Source: Nitrospirales bacterium (GTDB lineage Bacteria; Nitrospirota; Nitrospiria; Nitrospirales; UBA8639). From it: a DNA stretch of 64,000 nt. Below, in pieces: positions 56,098-64,000 of the stretch. The notes under the pieces are model-generated. The model saw only the letters and a list, made by a program, of their open reading frames with translations. It had not been told where the DNA came from and did not search any database. Numbering within the stretch: the first letter of the stretch is position 1; each line of letters starts with the position of its first letter. The DNA lies in contig BQIX01000001.1 in the NCBI GenBank assembly GCA_021604145.1, positions 296,343-360,342 of the forward strand, in the 5' to 3' direction. The position numbers and the translations under genes were made by a program.

Positions 56098-58641
56098 GTG
56101 AGAGATCAAATTGACGATTCAACTATTTCGACTTATTTCTCCAAACGTTCATTGCCAAAAGGGCTCGAAGGATTGAACGAACTTGCATTGGACCTGCGCT
56201 GGACGTGGAGCCATTTCAGTGACCAACTCTGGGAGCGGCTCGATCCAGAAGCATGGGAGCGAACGGCCAATCCCTACTTTATTCTCCAAAGTGTGCGGCA
56301 AGCTCGTCTTGAAGAAGCGGCGCGTGAGGAAAACCTCAAACAGGAACTGAAAGGCTGGTTGGAGCAACGACAGGAATATCTCAAGAATCCAGGATGGTTT
56401 GGGCGAACGTATACAGAGACTGAGGTGAAGGGTATTGCATATTTCAGCATGGAGTTTGGGCTGAGTGAGGCGCTTCCGATTTACTCCGGTGGTCTTGGCA
56501 TTTTGGCCGGTGATCACCTAAAAGCGGCAAGCGACCTCGGTGTTCCAATTGTGGGTATTGGTCTTCTATACCAACAAGGCTACTTTCGACAGATTCTCAA
56601 TGCAGACGCTTGGCAACTTGAAGCGTTCCCTTATAATGATCCTATCAACCTTCCCGTCACACCGGTTCCGGATCCGGATGGGGGATGGCTACGCATTACA
56701 CTTGAGTTGCCGGGGAGAACGTTATTAGTGCGAGTGTGGCAAGCTCAGATTGGAAAAGTCATGTTGTATCTATTGGATAGTAATGATCCACTCAACAGTC
56801 CACGTGACCGCGGAATCACGGCCAATCTCTACCCCGCAGGACCGGAACAGCGTCTGATGCAAGAAATCGTCCTTGGAGTGGGAGGTTGGCGTGTTTTAGA
56901 AGAACTCGATCTTGAAATTGATGTCTGCCATCTGAATGAAGGACATGCTGCCTTTGCCATCCTCGCACGGGTAAAAAGTTTTATGACCCAAACTGGACAG
57001 TCGTTCCCAGTGGCTCTTGGTGCCACTCGGGCCGGTAACGTCTTTACCACTCATACTCCAGTCGAAGCAGGTTTTGACAGGTTTGAACCCAATCTGATTC
57101 GTCCATATGCCCAATTCTTATCAACGATGATTAATGTGTCAAAGGATCAGCTGTTTGCATTGGGCCGCCGAGATCCTGCAAACAATCAGGAGCCTTTCAG
57201 CATGGCCTACCTCGCCATACGTGGAAGTGGCTATGTAAATGGGGTCAGTTGTCTGCATGGGCATGTTAGTCGAGAGATTTTTCAACCGTTGTTCCCCCAA
57301 TGGCCAACGGCTGAAGTGCCTGTTCGATCTATTACGAATGGTGTTCATGTCCCATCGTGGGACTCTTCAGAGGCCGACGCGTTGTGGACGCGCATTTGCG
57401 GAAAATCGCGATGGTTGGGCACGCTGGAAGAATTATGTCCCCTGATCTCAAACATTCCGAATCGGGAACTTTGGGCCTTTCGCGTGGCTCAACGGCAAGC
57501 GTTGATCAACTATGTCCGACGACGTCTCGTCCGACAGCACAAGGAGCATGGCGCATCAGCGGACCACATTCAGCGTACGAAACATGTCTTGGATCCCAAT
57601 GCGCTTACACTCGGATATGCCAGACGATTCACAGCCTATAAACGTCCCACACTTTTTTTACATGATCGGAGTCGTCTTGCGAGATTATTGTCCGACTCTA
57701 TGCGACCAGTGCAACTGATTATTGCCGGCAAGGCGCATCCGAAGGATGACGAAGGTAAGCGTCTTGTGCAGATGCTCGCACAGTTTGCTTCTGATCCGCA
57801 GTTCAGCAATTGTGTCGTGTTCTTGGAGGATTACGATATGGCGTTGGCTCAGGAACTGGTGGCCGGCGTCGATGTGTGGCTGAATACGCCGCGAAGGCCT
57901 CTGGAAGCGTCTGGAACCAGCGGCATGAAAGTACTGGTCAATGGCGGACTGAACTTGTCTGTGCTCGATGGGTGGTGGGATGAAGCCTATGCACCTGAAG
58001 TCGGGTGGGCAATCGGAGAGGGAAATACCCAACATAATCTCAATCGGGATACCCTTGAGGCCGAACAGTTTTACCAGATTCTAGAGCAACAGATCATTCC
58101 TGAATTTTATAACCGCAATCAGGATGGGATTCCTCATGCCTGGACGAATAGAGTACGAGCCAGTATGTCCAGGCTCACGGCGCACTTCAGTAGCAATCGC
58201 ATGGTACGCGAGTACGTGGAGCAGACGTACATTCCCGCTGCCAAACGGTATCGTGATCGGGTAGCCAATGAAACGCAAGTCGGGAAGGAATTACAGAAAT
58301 GGCAAAAGAACATGCAAGAAACCTGGGAGACTCTCCGATTTGGGGAATTGCATGTCACGCAATATGATGATCACTATGCGTTCGATGTCCAAGTGTACAT
58401 GGGAGATATGGATTCTAGCTGGATCAGCGTGGAATTGTACGCTGACGATGAACATGGTGAAGGTGTCGTTCGAGTTACCATGAAGCAAACAGAAACGATT
58501 CCTGGAATGGTGAATGCGTATCGGTTCAAAGCTGAAGTGCCAGCGTCTCGACCCGTTGAGCACTATACTCCCCGAATCGTCCCTTGCCATCCCTCTGTGT
58601 TCATCCCATTAGAAATTTCTGACATCCTCTGGTACCGATAG
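56098..58641 (+). CDS. glgP: Alpha-glucan (glycogen) phosphorylase
   Basis: This 847-residue GT35 enzyme breaks alpha-1,4-glucan with phosphate to glucose 1-phosphate. It belongs to the shorter bacterial branch: an N-terminal DUF3417-like part (LNELALDLRWTWSHFSDQLW), AYFSMEFGLSEALPIYSGGL, DVCHLNEGHAAFAIL and the PLP region RRPLEASGTSGMKVLVNGG, whose lysine binds the cofactor. A GTG start is used. The GH13 gene follows after 4 bases, so the two are co-expressed. It would supply glucose 1-phosphate to the pathways leading to the phosphoketolase. Confidence 0.93.
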   Translation: MRDQIDDSTISTYFSKRSLPKGLEGLNELALDLRWTWSHFSDQLWERLDPEAWERTANPYFILQSVRQARLEEAAREENLKQELKGWLEQRQEYLKNPGWFGRTYTETEVKGIAYFSMEFGLSEALPIYSGGLGILAGDHLKAASDLGVPIVGIGLLYQQGYFRQILNADAWQLEAFPYNDPINLPVTPVPDPDGGWLRITLELPGRTLLVRVWQAQIGKVMLYLLDSNDPLNSPRDRGITANLYPAGPEQRLMQEIVLGVGGWRVLEELDLEIDVCHLNEGHAAFAILARVKSFMTQTGQSFPVALGATRAGNVFTTHTPVEAGFDRFEPNLIRPYAQFLSTMINVSKDQLFALGRRDPANNQEPFSMAYLAIRGSGYVNGVSCLHGHVSREIFQPLFPQWPTAEVPVRSITNGVHVPSWDSSEADALWTRICGKSRWLGTLEELCPLISNIPNRELWAFRVAQRQALINYVRRRLVRQHKEHGASADHIQRTKHVLDPNALTLGYARRFTAYKRPTLFLHDRSRLARLLSDSMRPVQLIIAGKAHPKDDEGKRLVQMLAQFASDPQFSNCVVFLEDYDMALAQELVAGVDVWLNTPRRPLEASGTSGMKVLVNGGLNLSVLDGWWDEAYAPEVGWAIGEGNTQHNLNRDTLEAEQFYQILEQQIIPEFYNRNQDGIPHAWTNRVRASMSRLTAHFSSNRMVREYVEQTYIPAAKRYRDRVANETQVGKELQKWQKNMQETWETLRFGELHVTQYDDHYAFDVQVYMGDMDSSWISVELYADDEHGEGVVRVTMKQTETIPGMVNAYRFKAEVPASRPVEHYTPRIVPCHPSVFIPLEISDILWYR

Positions 58642-58645
58642 CCCC

Positions 58646-60166
58646 ATGAATCCCTGTGCCTTCCGTCCCTCATGCCGTCCCCATCCTCATCTCTATGAAA
58701 TCAATACCTGGGTCTGGTTGAAGGAGCTCTCACGAAAAGAAAAAAGAATGATTCGTCTTGGTGATGTGCCAGATCAAGAATGGGATGACCTTCAGAGCAA
58801 AGGGTTTGATTACATTTGGTTGATGGGTATTTGGGAGCGAAGTCCTCACAGTCGATCAATTGCACGGAGTGACCCAGGATTACAGAAAGAGTATGAACAA
58901 GCCTTACCAGACTGGACAGCCAAGGATGTTGTCGGGTCACCATATGCCATTCGTGCGTATCGTCCAGATCCAGAACTTGGCACGTGGGATCAGCTCGATC
59001 GTGTCTTGGAGAAACTTCATCAACGAGGCATGCAGCTCATTCTCGATTTTGTGCCAAACCATACGGCTGTGGATCATGAGTGGATCCAATTGCATCCAGA
59101 ATACTACATTCAAGGAACCGCGAAAAACCTTGAGGCCCCTCCAGACGAATTCTTTACAATACATGTTAACGGGAGGGCTCTGAATCTCGCTCATGGAAAA
59201 GATCCCTACTTCCCGGCTTGGACGGATACGGCTCAGTTGAATTATTTTCAAGAAGCCACTCGTACGGCCTTAATTGAAGAACTGAAAACAATCGCTCAGC
59301 ACTGTGATGGAGTTCGATGTGACATGGCGATGCTGGTGCTGAATGAAGTGTTTCAGAAGACATGGGGTGATTTTCTAGGAATAGAAGGCACTCCTGCTAT
59401 CGAATTCTGGACAGAAGCCATCACCGCGGTGTCTGATTTGGTCTGGATGGCTGAAGTGTATTGGGATCTTGAATGGGATTTACAACAGCTGGGATTCCAT
59501 TTCACGTATGACAAGAGATTGTACGATCGACTGTGCCATTTGGCTTCCGATGAGATCCTTGCTCATCTCAACGCTGATGTGAACTATCAACAACACCTTG
59601 TTCGATTCTTAGAAAATCATGATGAACCAAGAAGTGCGTCGATGTTTGGCAATGTTCGTCTTCCTGCCGCTGCTACGCTCACGGCAACCTTACCTGGTAT
59701 GCGCTTTTATCATCAGGGCCAGCTTGAAGGGAAGAAAATTCGGTTGCCGGTTCAACTCGCACGAATGAAAGAAGAACTTCTCGATCATGAAATAATGGAC
59801 CTGTATGGTCATTTGCTTCAAATTACCAATGAGAGGATCTTTCACGAAGGTCAATGGCGACTCCTTACGATGCATTCGGCAAGTGATTCTTCCTATACAA
59901 ACCTCATTGGGTATCTGTGGGAACTTCACACGTCACAAAAGATTGTCGCCGTAAATTTTGGAGCAATTGAATCACAAGGCTTTCTTGATCTCTTTGACGG
60001 CAGAGAAGCTGAAGATGGTTTTCCCTCAATCTTTTCGTATCGTGACCAATTGACTGGACACGAATACGCATTCAATTATGAAGACGTCGTTGGCCGTGGA
60101 CTGTATATTCGCCTGAAGCCTTTTGATGCTCATATCTTCTCAGTCTCTGCTCAGGAGCCCCATTAG
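58646..60166 (+). CDS. GH13 alpha-amylase-family enzyme
   Basis: This 506-residue protein has an alpha-amylase barrel. Conserved regions are LILDFVPNHTAVDHEW (region I), CDGVRCDMAMLVL with the nucleophile Asp (II), WMAEVYWDLEWDLQQLG with the acid Glu (III) and LENHDEPRSASM (IV). No signal peptide is seen, so it acts in the cytoplasm on glycogen, limit dextrin or maltodextrin. The start sits 4 bases after glgP, so the pair degrades stored glucan. It is distantly similar to trehalose- or amylosucrase-like GH13 enzymes; the exact specificity is unclear. Confidence 0.88.
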   Translation: MNPCAFRPSCRPHPHLYEINTWVWLKELSRKEKRMIRLGDVPDQEWDDLQSKGFDYIWLMGIWERSPHSRSIARSDPGLQKEYEQALPDWTAKDVVGSPYAIRAYRPDPELGTWDQLDRVLEKLHQRGMQLILDFVPNHTAVDHEWIQLHPEYYIQGTAKNLEAPPDEFFTIHVNGRALNLAHGKDPYFPAWTDTAQLNYFQEATRTALIEELKTIAQHCDGVRCDMAMLVLNEVFQKTWGDFLGIEGTPAIEFWTEAITAVSDLVWMAEVYWDLEWDLQQLGFHFTYDKRLYDRLCHLASDEILAHLNADVNYQQHLVRFLENHDEPRSASMFGNVRLPAAATLTATLPGMRFYHQGQLEGKKIRLPVQLARMKEELLDHEIMDLYGHLLQITNERIFHEGQWRLLTMHSASDSSYTNLIGYLWELHTSQKIVAVNFGAIESQGFLDLFDGREAEDGFPSIFSYRDQLTGHEYAFNYEDVVGRGLYIRLKPFDAHIFSVSAQEPH

Positions 60167-60322: not shown

Positions 60323-61270
60323 ATGAAAATTTTATTGGGTGTCGATTTTTCACGTGACTCGAAAACTGCTATTCGTTTTTTGTCAGGCATCCAGTTTCCA
60401 GCAAACTCTGAATTGTTTCTTGTGCATGTGAAAAGTGGCTATGAGGCACTACAGATTGGGCATTCGCGAGAAGTTGAAAAGAGTCTAAACACCCTTTATA
60501 AGAAAGCGATCGATCGGTCACGAAGAAATTTAGAACAAATTAAAGACAAGTTGGGCAACGCTCGATTGGACGTTCGAACCATGATGAAGGAAGGTAATGC
60601 TGGAAAAGAAATTCTTTCTGTACTTGATCAGGAACATATCGACCTTGCGGTCTTAGGAACTCGAGGTCTCTCAGGCATTCAACGTTTTCTCTTAGGAAGT
60701 GTGAGTGAGTGGATTCTTCAAGACGCTCCTTGCCCGGTTCTTGTTGTGCGTGGTTCCAGCCATTGGATACACCGAAGGATTCGAGTGTTATTCACGACGG
60801 ATGGTTCCACCGAAGCACAGGCTGCTCTTAAGTTTCTCAATGCGTTAAGATTTCCGGCTGAGTCTGAAATCATCGTTTTTCATGTGGTGGAGGGAACGGA
60901 CTATCGAATTGTACAGGATGATTTCAGAGAACTAAAAGTAGATTCTTTCGGTCAAGTGGATCTCGCGAAGGTTTCCCAAGACATTCAATCACGAAAGGAA
61001 ATAGCGGGTCGTGCACTCGTGAAGGAAGCGAAGCGAGGTCTCATAAACAGGCATAGCAACGCCGATCATATTTCGACTGGACATGCTGCTGAAGAAATTC
61101 TGAAAGCTGCACGTCGGTTCAAAACCAACCTGATCGTTATGGGCTCGCGTGGCCTGACTGGGATCAAACAAAAATTTCTTGAAAGTGTTTCTACCCGTGT
61201 TGCTCGTCACGCTCCATGTTCGGTTCTTGTGGCTCGGCAATTACCGAAAAATGCGAGGATTGGTTTATAA
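60323..61270 (+). CDS. Tandem universal stress protein
   Basis: This 315-residue protein has two UspA domains. The first has a complete nucleotide signature, GTRGLSGIQRFLLGSVS. In the second, GSRGLTGIKQKFLESVS replaces the last Gly with Glu, which should weaken ATP binding. It is closest to the copies at 19721 and 46100 in length and layout. It converges with the minus-strand USP gene that ends 45 bases away. No -24/-12 element was found directly upstream, so it may be regulated differently. Confidence 0.9.
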   Translation: MKILLGVDFSRDSKTAIRFLSGIQFPANSELFLVHVKSGYEALQIGHSREVEKSLNTLYKKAIDRSRRNLEQIKDKLGNARLDVRTMMKEGNAGKEILSVLDQEHIDLAVLGTRGLSGIQRFLLGSVSEWILQDAPCPVLVVRGSSHWIHRRIRVLFTTDGSTEAQAALKFLNALRFPAESEIIVFHVVEGTDYRIVQDDFRELKVDSFGQVDLAKVSQDIQSRKEIAGRALVKEAKRGLINRHSNADHISTGHAAEEILKAARRFKTNLIVMGSRGLTGIKQKFLESVSTRVARHAPCSVLVARQLPKNARIGL

Positions 61271-61315: not shown

Positions 61316-62167
61316 TCATCTATCTGGGGATATGACCGGAACCGCCAGGACGGGACATCGGACACCACGAACGATTCGTTCTGTCGTGCTGCCTTGAAAA
61401 ACATCAAACAGGCCACGATGACCTTCAGTCATCATGACGATCAAGTGAGGAGAAAATTCAGCTGCCATTTCAAGAAGCTGATCAACTGGATGACCGGGGC
61501 GGGCGAACTTCTTCCACTTCCACCCTTCACGTGAGGGTAGGTGTACAGCTGGGATATGCTCCTTTTTACCCACATGAAAAATTTTCCAGTCTATCCTGCG
61601 TGCATCGAGTAAGCTGGCGAGCTCGACAGCACGATCGATAGCCAGTTGAGGAGGAAGCAACCGGGTAATAGGGATTAATATACGTTCAAGGGTTACTGTT
61701 CCGTCTTTACATGAGACACCGCCTTCTGCCAATGGTGGAACGAACAATGTCGGGCATCGGGCCTCCCTTGCCAATGGTTCGGCTAGTGGCGTATAGAGCC
61801 ATCGATTCAATCCTTCGATTTGGTGAGTGGCGAGGACCATAACATCAGGATTTTTTTGATTCAAATGTTGAACGATTGAGGAGAATATATCCGGTCCTGT
61901 CGCAATAATGCCATCCACTCGCATCCCAAGCGCATGCATGTCATCTTTAGCACAGTCTCTTGCAAGAACGTTCCAATCCGACAAGGTTTCACGTACTTTA
62001 GGGAAATAATCCCAGCTTGTGACTAGCCCCTGTTCAGCATAATGAATCACAGTCAATTCAGCCTTCGCTGCCAAAGTCAATTTTAAGGCATGGGCATATG
62101 CCATTTCGCTCGCAAACGAAAAATCAGTCGGGTGAAAAATGGTTTGAAATATCTTGGAATTTTTCAT
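61316..62167 (-). CDS. Universal stress protein, divergent tandem type
   Basis: This 283-residue protein has two USP-like domains, FQTIFHPTDFSFASEMAYAH at the start and LERILIPITRLLPPQLAIDR at the middle. Neither carries the full G-2X-G-9X-G-S/T motif; the second has TEGHRGLFDVFQGSTTE and the first THQIEGLNRWLYTPLAEP. It is therefore a different branch from the three other USPs, perhaps not ATP-binding. It follows a cytochrome c gene by 18 bases and shares its sigma-54 promoter. Confidence 0.87.
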   Translation of the reverse strand: MKNSKIFQTIFHPTDFSFASEMAYAHALKLTLAAKAELTVIHYAEQGLVTSWDYFPKVRETLSDWNVLARDCAKDDMHALGMRVDGIIATGPDIFSSIVQHLNQKNPDVMVLATHQIEGLNRWLYTPLAEPLAREARCPTLFVPPLAEGGVSCKDGTVTLERILIPITRLLPPQLAIDRAVELASLLDARRIDWKIFHVGKKEHIPAVHLPSREGWKWKKFARPGHPVDQLLEMAAEFSPHLIVMMTEGHRGLFDVFQGSTTERIVRGVRCPVLAVPVISPDR

Positions 62168-62185: not shown

Positions 62186-62548
62186 TTAAGTAATCGGATT
62201 AAAGGGAGCCATCAGACGAATGTAACTGAGCACGTCCCAGCGCTCCTGTTCGTTTAATCGGTTTGCCCATCCATGCATCGGCGAAAAGGCAACCCCAAAA
62301 GTAATCGTCGTCATCAGTTCCCAATCAGTTTTAGATCGTGACTCATCGGAATGAAAATCCGCCGGTTTCACCGTAAGGAACTTGGTGTCCGGTCCTTGCC
62401 CATCTCCATTTTTCCCATGACAATTTACACAATGATGCATATAGATAGATTTTCCTTCTTGAGGATCTCCAAACAATTCTTGCCCTATTCCTAATGAAGC
62501 CATCCCAAGCACCAGGCACAGTATAAAGATTGTCGATAGGTGTTTCAT
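62186..62548 (-). CDS. Monoheme cytochrome c
   Basis: This 120-residue protein has a signal peptide (IFILCLVLGMASLGIG) and one heme motif, HHCVNCHGKNGDGQG, around residue 40. A likely Met ligand is in AFSPMHGWANRL. The C-terminal helix includes ERWDVLSYIRLMAPF. It is cotranscribed with the divergent USP gene and preceded by an exact minus-strand -24/-12 element about 70 bases upstream. Its role is a small periplasmic electron carrier. Confidence 0.88.
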   Translation of the reverse strand: MKHLSTIFILCLVLGMASLGIGQELFGDPQEGKSIYMHHCVNCHGKNGDGQGPDTKFLTVKPADFHSDESRSKTDWELMTTITFGVAFSPMHGWANRLNEQERWDVLSYIRLMAPFNPIT

Positions 62549-62616: not shown

Positions 62617-62632
62617 GGCAAAAGCTGTGCCA
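62617..62632 (-). promoter_or_regulatory. Sigma-54 (-24/-12) promoter for cytochrome c/USP
   Basis: The minus strand reads TGGCACAGCTTTTGCC, an exact spacing match to RpoN promoters, about 70 bases before the cytochrome ATG. It faces away from a second -24/-12 promoter at 62844. Confidence 0.65.
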
Positions 62633-62741
62633 TTTATGTTTTTATAAATTTTTGGCGTGATATTTTTGTGTCTCAAGGCCGATTTATATCGTAAATAATA
62701 ATGTATCCCGATTTTTCCGGGATGAATCTTTGTTAAAGGAA

Positions 62742-62763
62742 CTGTTGCTTCATGTCACAACAG
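62742..62763. promoter_or_regulatory. Shared enhancer candidate CTGTTG-N10-CAACAG
   Basis: A perfect 6-bp dyad lies between two divergent -24/-12 promoters, at about 80-110 bases from each. AAACGCTCTCTGTAG, similar to blocks upstream of the 19463 and 47330 promoters, follows at 62765-62779, and another CAACAG follows it. Confidence 0.5.
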
Positions 62764-62843
62764 GAAACGCTCTCTGTAGCCTTTTTCAACAGTGGAGTAG
62801 CTATAAAATACTGTAATCCAAGTATATTCATGTTTTCTTCCGC

Positions 62844-62859
62844 TGGCATTTGACTTGCT
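62844..62859 (+). promoter_or_regulatory. Sigma-54 (-24/-12) promoter for the receiver and activator genes
   Basis: TGGCATTTGACTTGCT matches the RpoN consensus and spacing and lies about 80 bases before the TTG start at 62938. It would drive the receiver gene and probably the sigma-54 activator gene that follows, allowing feedback control. Confidence 0.65.
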
Positions 62860-62937: not shown

Positions 62938-63366
62938 TTGGAAGTGAGGATTTGTCAGTCAATTACCTGTACTATACTTGTTGTCGATGACGATCCAGCA
63001 ATGAGAAGCCTGCTCGTGGATGAATTAAGTGATAACGGATGCCAGGTTACCGAGTCTTGCGATGGTCATGACGCTCTTTCTCGACTGAAGACATACTCAC
63101 CCAACCTCATCATCACTGACTTGAAAATGCCTGGAGGAGGATTTACATATCTTAAAAACGTATGCCTGCTTGTTCAAAATTGCCCTATAATCTTGATCAC
63201 GGCCTTCGGGAATTCCCAAACGAGGAAACACGCACAAGCTTGTGGAGTTGCTGCCTATTTTGATAAACCTGTTCGCGTAAACGATCTCAAGGGGGCGCTT
63301 CAACAATTTTGTCCACTCGACAAGTCTCAGACTTGTCAAAATACCGTGTTATGGGACAAGATGTGA
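62938..63366 (+). CDS. Response-regulator receiver protein
   Basis: This 142-residue receiver has the acidic pocket LVVDDDPAMRS, the phospho-acceptor Asp in IITDLKMPGGGF, the switch Thr in ILITAFGN and the Lys in YFDKPVRVNDL. No output domain is attached. The start is a TTG; an upstream ribosome-binding site is weak. It lies 21 bases before a sigma-54 activator gene and behind a -24/-12 promoter, so it probably belongs to that activator's signalling chain. It resembles the frameshifted receiver at 21017. Confidence 0.85.
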   Translation: MEVRICQSITCTILVVDDDPAMRSLLVDELSDNGCQVTESCDGHDALSRLKTYSPNLIITDLKMPGGGFTYLKNVCLLVQNCPIILITAFGNSQTRKHAQACGVAAYFDKPVRVNDLKGALQQFCPLDKSQTCQNTVLWDKM

Positions 63367-63387: not shown

Positions 63388-64000
63388 ATGGCCGGATCGT
63401 TTCTGCAAATTCAGCCTGATGATGATTGTATTCTTTTCTCACGTCTAGAGGGGCTCACTCTTCTTGCGAATCACCTGCCCAAGCCAGTGGTCATCTTTGA
63501 TCCAACCTTGAAATTAGTGTATGCGAATGCGCATGCCCAGACATTAGCCTCATCCTGTCCACTTTTGAGTAATCTCTCCACCCCTGAATGCGACTCTGTA
63601 TCGAATTCAAAAGATTCCTGCACGACATGTGCAGCAAAAGAACTTTTTTTGTACGAGGAACCTCAATCTGCAACAGATGGAGAGACGGCCATTGTCGGGC
63701 AGAGTGATCCTTCTTGTCCCTTTCCCAATTCGTTCTCGGTACCAGGCGATGAAGGAAACACAGCCTGCGTGGTAATGATGGGAAAATGTCCTGAAGAGAG
63801 CACGGTGTGGAAAACACGACTGGAGGGTCTTTCAGCACTGAATGTCTCATCTATTCCAGACAAACAACTCAGTCACTCCTTGATTGGACGTAGTGCGTCA
63901 ATGCAGCGATTGGTCGAGATGATTGGGTTGATTTCAACCTCTGAGTCGACCGTATTAATAGAAGGCGAAAGTGGTACCGGAAAAGAATTAGTCGCGAAGA
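63388..64000 (+). CDS. Sigma-54-dependent transcriptional activator (partial)
   Basis: The gene begins at an ATG after GGAAGTG and runs off the window; 204 residues are visible. The first part has a PAS-like segment ([20 protein letters not shown]) with many cysteines after it ([20 protein letters not shown]), which might hold a redox centre or metal. From about residue 163, [19 protein letters not shown] leads into the Walker [13 protein letters not shown] of an AAA+ enhancer-binding domain. The Fis-type DNA-binding domain would lie outside. It is the best candidate to activate the -24/-12 promoters seen across the window. Confidence 0.88.

Follow-up and report, generated by a model that had tools for sequence, protein, structure and literature searches.

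Predicted IHF/sigma-54 promoters precede mnxG and mcoA in Pseudomonas putida GB-1, in which the sigma-54 response regulator MnxR is paired with the kinases MnxS1/MnxS2 (PMC11930936, PMC11409713). Mn oxidation is lost in an rpoN mutant of a related strain (PMC11409713). MnxG-like genes have been noted in UBA8639 and Nitrospira MAGs, with their function unproven (PMC11995701, PMC12070406), and Mn(II) oxidation is reported to be unproven for these families (PMC11995701). Annotations of many nitrite oxidizers include MnxG-like oxidases, and a regulatory chain that is conserved and has defined DNA sites offers a direct route to asking when and why these oxidases are made. A literature search, with subscription journals largely outside its scope, brought up no description of such regulation in Nitrospirales.

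The NtrC half-site is TGCACY, and NifA sites have the form TGT-N10-ACA.

The DNA analysed here, termed the window, is a 64 kb stretch of a Nitrospirales genome (G000:C1:296343-360342), the right edge of which is the contig end. It was compared with Nitrospirales MAGs, the closest being G003. Near this edge are the genes for a stand-alone receiver domain (RR) and a sigma-54 activator (EBP); elsewhere on the same contig is a second activator, EBP2, of receiver-AAA-Fis architecture, encoded beside a PAS-rich histidine kinase. Sequence comparisons favour, with a probability of about 0.58, a two-tier cascade in which the kinase and EBP2 would activate RR and EBP (and, in this genome, a cytochrome c and the universal stress protein USP2), and RR-EBP would activate a giant oxidase.

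By analogy, this resembles the MnxS1/MnxS2-MnxR system in its sigma-54 promoters, its sigma-54 regulator with sensor kinases and its giant multicopper oxidases of the MnxG/McoA type. It differs in that two activators would act in series, one of them receiver-less but encoded beside a separate receiver, and in that the oxidase is only a distant MnxG relative, a putative Mn oxidase at most. The likeness points to a sigma-54 control of giant multicopper oxidases that Nitrospirales either share with Pseudomonas or have reached by convergence. As with NtrC/NifA upstream activating sequences, the Nitrospirales sites are tandem 17-18-bp TGT-N11/12-ACA dyads 5′ of a -24/-12 element, but the half-sites are TGTRGC and TGTCYA, not TGCACY.

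Gene layout and the divergent promoters

The gene USP1 (60323..61270, plus strand), assigned by Pfam profile and neighbourhood, is followed on the minus strand by USP2, which has a double universal-stress-protein domain (61316..62167; Pfam Usp), and by a gene for a small secreted cytochrome c of 120 aa (62186..62548; Pfam Cytochrom_C), with an ATG start at 62548. On the plus strand are RR (62938..63366; Pfam Response_reg), with a TTG start at 62938, and EBP (63388..64000). EBP is interrupted after 204 codons because the contig ends at the right end of the window; full-length EBP in relatives has 465-483 aa. Immediately 5′ of USP1 are glycogen phosphorylase-like and alpha-amylase family genes (56098-60166). 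The same MAG has another such locus, C172 (L004), in which USP1 is followed by RR and EBP and then by a giant multicopper oxidase. Its EBP is 94% identical to the window EBP across the shared portion, and an oxidase gene presumably follows the window copy as well.

EBP has a sensor domain, an AAA domain and a Fis HTH, as in receiver-less PAS activators of the NifA/NorR kind. It differs from these in scoring far below both equivalog cut-offs and in its N-terminus, where an invariant CxxC is accompanied by another Cys and, in family f1, by a fourth. The predicted structure of the N-terminus is PAS-like at low confidence (pLDDT 62), and PAS proteins lead the structural matches to the model, with no E value below 0.001. 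That EBP might sense redox state or a metal is a guess.

A preliminary description of this DNA had reported two back-to-back -24/-12 elements facing opposite genes. Both are present, divergently oriented within a single 389-bp interval. With a sigma-54 weight matrix built from -24/-12 consensus frequencies of general knowledge, the rightward element TGGCATTTGACTTGCT (62844-62859, plus strand), toward RR-EBP, ranks first on both strands of the 64-kb window, and the leftward element TGGCACAGCTTTTGCC (62617-62632, minus strand), toward cytochrome c and USP2, ranks second; mononucleotide shuffles give about 0.65 matches of equal strength per whole window. The rightward element has no mismatches to TGGCAY-N5-TTGCW and the leftward element one, its -12 part terminating in TTGCC, not TTGCA/T; GG and GC are at 10-bp spacing in both. 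The leftward element is 69 bp from the cytochrome c gene that it faces. An rpoN gene is encoded in this genome. Three matches to the RpoN DNA-binding domain, one fragmentary, were detected (G000 C449, C103, C553), and these may represent a strain mixture (6.7% contamination) or real paralogs.

The rightward element recurs about 65-120 nt 5′ of RR in most relatives across the order Nitrospirales. Its form is near-perfect in the genus, weaker (GGGCCC/AGGCCC) in genus g9 and TGGCAC in Nitrospiraceae. The leftward element was found in no relative, and the gene pair it faces is absent there, so that the conservation anticipated for both promoters holds for the rightward one and fails for the leftward one. 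The further proposal, joint switching of RR, EBP, cytochrome and USP2, is supported as a possibility, since two sigma-54 promoters share one candidate activator-site region.

Tandem sites between the promoters

Between the promoters are the previously described CTGTTG-N10-CAACAG dyad (62742-62763) and a third CAACAG (62787-62792). Three CAACAG/CTGTTG words in the 389-bp interval are unusual (P=0.0005); perfect 6-bp dyads number three against 1.9 expected (P=0.30). When the window is aligned with C172 and G004, only CTGTTG(C), CTGTAGCNTTTT and the -24/-12 element stand out. The dyad, described as shared by both promoters, does lie in a conserved site region and keeps its left half in C172 and G004, but its right arm CAACAG is not retained and the dyad alone is unremarkable; with perfect 6-bp dyads common by chance, it was rejected as a conserved operator. 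Another dyad, ATCCCG-N7-CGGGAT (62705-62723), is probably due to chance, because the dyad count is within the expected number and it is not kept in the genus alignment.

A first motif, TGTRG-N7-CMACA, was superseded by one derived by expectation maximization (EM) from 31 non-redundant RR promoters, all outside the genus of the window. This motif, TGTRGNNTTTYTCNMCA, has a log-likelihood of 278 versus about 67 in shuffles. In a held-out scan of the window with the EM matrix, 62774-62792 ranks first with 19.9 bits, the next best score in 64 kb being 14.0. This 19-bp stretch of the plus strand, CTGTAGCCTTTTTCAACAG, is the proximal candidate activator site and contains the third CAACAG. Nitrospiraceae RR promoters have a second site 33-34 bp upstream of the first. 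The window's dyad is 32 bp upstream of the proximal site, measured by site starts, and its position corresponds to that of the second tandem site of relatives; it is the distal candidate activator site. By these comparisons, what is conserved is two predicted 17-19-bp sites in tandem, made up of the left half of the dyad and the proximal site; the preliminary description had picked up the distal site and half of the proximal one. Activator sites keep their position relative to the -24/-12 element in relatives.

An exact-pattern scan of 98 genomes yielded 70 matches versus five for a reversed control (our own tally); several sites in relatives were set aside as they are inside genes. A second exact site in this genome (G000:C2:38115) is intergenic with no sigma-54 element nearby. 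Some EBP-positive genomes (G001, G006, G009, G018) have weak sites at RR.

The giant oxidase and its promoter dyad

The gene that follows EBP in most relatives encodes a secreted, MnxG-related protein of about 1635 aa. This gene has a sigma-54 element of its own, usually 224-236 nt after EBP. The protein is clearly homologous to the MnxG structure 9bxa (E 7e-75); its score of 133 bits against the NCBIfam MnxG equivalog is far below the cut-off of 3100. Ten full-length copies share 86-94% identity with the G003 reference, and Nitrospiraceae copies about 62%. Of the 56 oxidase loci that have 3 kb or more of upstream sequence, EBP is within 4 kb in 27 (25 of them with RR), EBP2-kinase alone is found in seven, and 22 have neither. 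Many of these 22 belong to a second, more divergent type of oxidase that lacks sigma-54 and dyad signals; some retain the dyad with no EBP nearby. The divergent type (L092-L104, L109, L111, L138, L143, L146, L147, L151) is mostly 66-79% identical to the reference, and EBP, sigma-54 element and dyad are all absent upstream of it. G002 has an oxidase locus with an upstream EBP matched in fragments only (L074/L136, C70); its contig C26 carries a full-length EBP without an adjoining oxidase.

The dyad TGTCYA-N6-TRGACA is present in all 31 EBP-linked oxidase promoters at 19.5-25.8 bits, these being the same set from which the motif was learned, and is nearly always 178-184 nt before the oxidase -24 element. 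It is found in none of 44 RR-EBP promoters (at most 4.1 bits) and is absent from g4-type oxidase promoters (at most 0.8), which have EBP2-type sites instead. Matches versus a reversed control are 113:30 in EBP-positive genomes and 11:13 in clearly EBP-negative ones, by our own tally, which leaves out six genomes of uncertain EBP status. Five oxidase promoters in Nitrospiraceae (L123, L127, L130, L131, L132) display both site types; a single protein might therefore recognise both types, or the two proteins might act jointly.

The 5′ leader of the oxidase gene, from its sigma-54 promoter to its start codon (L004:4370-4470 (-), L016, L017 and others), displays a conserved block, GGTGAAGG...GATGGACCGGCCTCC...CCCTTCACC in C172, which could form a hairpin.

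Activators, their probable targets and the cytochrome-USP2 pair

In family f1, EBP2 is divergent from a USP gene, and between the two lie a sigma-54 element and, 33-34 bp apart, paired sites of the kind seen in the window. The window site in reverse orientation, TGTTGAAAAAGGCTACAGAGA, equals the EBP2-USP divergon site TGGTGAAAAAGGCTACAGAGA of G012 in 20 of 21 bases. The divergon matrix scores the proximal window site at 16.2 bits, and a palindromic matrix trained on the divergon alone gives the window site 14.4 bits (P 0.004). The same palindromic matrix detects a site in seven of seven g4-type oxidase promoters (P 0.002-0.012 each, the seven loci being related); individually these sites are low, at 9.6-16.4 bits, and EM run on only the g4 oxidase promoters yielded no informative motif. 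The genes are also clustered: the order is EBP2-kinase-RR-EBP-oxidase in N. defluvii, EBP2-kinase-RR-EBP in another Nitrospiraceae genome and EBP2-kinase-oxidase, with RR-EBP absent, in g4.

In the simplest reading, EBP2 would occupy the window sites and EBP the oxidase dyad, which would put the two in a cascade; the loci behind it share ancestry and are not phylogenetically independent. EBP2 would bind the tandem pair, distally near 62742-62763 and proximally at 62774-62792, and would switch on RR-EBP to the right and, to the left, the cytochrome c-USP2 genes inserted in this genome. EBP would then act via TGTCYA-N6-TRGACA on the sigma-54 promoter of the MnxG-like oxidase; its activity is probably controlled by the PAS-like cysteine domain and perhaps also by RR.

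The preliminary description had instead proposed positive feedback, the rightward promoter preceding the activator gene itself. EBP would then bind both sites and activate its own operon together with the cytochrome-USP2 operon. The sites do precede the EBP operon in nearly all carriers, exact-pattern matches concentrate in EBP-positive genomes, with almost none in genomes that have EBP2 but not EBP, and the five Nitrospiraceae oxidase promoters bear the same site type. Paired sites of the same kind are found at the EBP2-USP divergon, however, EBP2-type sites occur at the oxidase promoter in genomes without EBP, and the dyad that tracks EBP, and which EBP would presumably bind, is missing from EBP's own promoter. 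Autoregulation is rather unlikely on this evidence, and the feedback first proposed is not supported.

The cytochrome-USP2 pair was absent from this place in every relative examined. No other genus member has a cytochrome c adjoining RR, 60 relatives hold no USP2 homolog above 44% identity, and USP1 is directly 5′ of RR in C172 and G001 and of EBP in G002. The pair is therefore best read as a probable insertion between USP1 and RR in this lineage, which would explain why no counterpart of the leftward element with a matching dyad was found 5′ of cytochrome homologs in relatives. A conserved divergent cytochrome promoter was considered and rejected: among cytochrome homologs, only G018 has a promoter pair of some loose similarity, and its -12 elements are poor. 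Evidence for the leftward promoter comes from one genome, and the element could be fortuitous, with control on the rightward promoter only; this would be compatible with a cascade, with feedback or with both. The atypical TTGCC end and the lack, in any relative, of the gene pair or of a promoter pair with such sites point that way. Its rank in the 64 kb and its closeness to the cytochrome gene argue against chance, as does the fact that these sites have USP genes as their other conserved targets and that USPs and a cytochrome c are likewise found among the genes divergent from EBP2 in this genome. A fortuitous leftward element is unlikely.

A mixture of cascade and feedback, in which the paralogous EBP and EBP2 would both bind the region or RR would modulate EBP2, is quite improbable: five oxidase promoters hold both site classes and the distal and proximal sites differ in detail, but the motifs separate cleanly in the 44 RR and nearly all of the 31 oxidase promoters.

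As to the evolution of the cascade, the chances appear even that Nitrospirales control the MnxG-like oxidase through these two tiers, that RR-EBP was added or lost as a tier, with one genus keeping direct EBP2-type control of the same oxidase, and that in the window a stress-protein and cytochrome operon was inserted beside the tier-two promoter and joined to it. RR-EBP would then be a naturally occurring example of a regulatory level that some genera have and another lacks.

At L280 (G000:C1:214500-222500), genes for USP, Hsp20, cytochrome c, cupredoxin and USP are divergent from EBP2 and resemble the cytochrome-USP2 genes of the window in kind.
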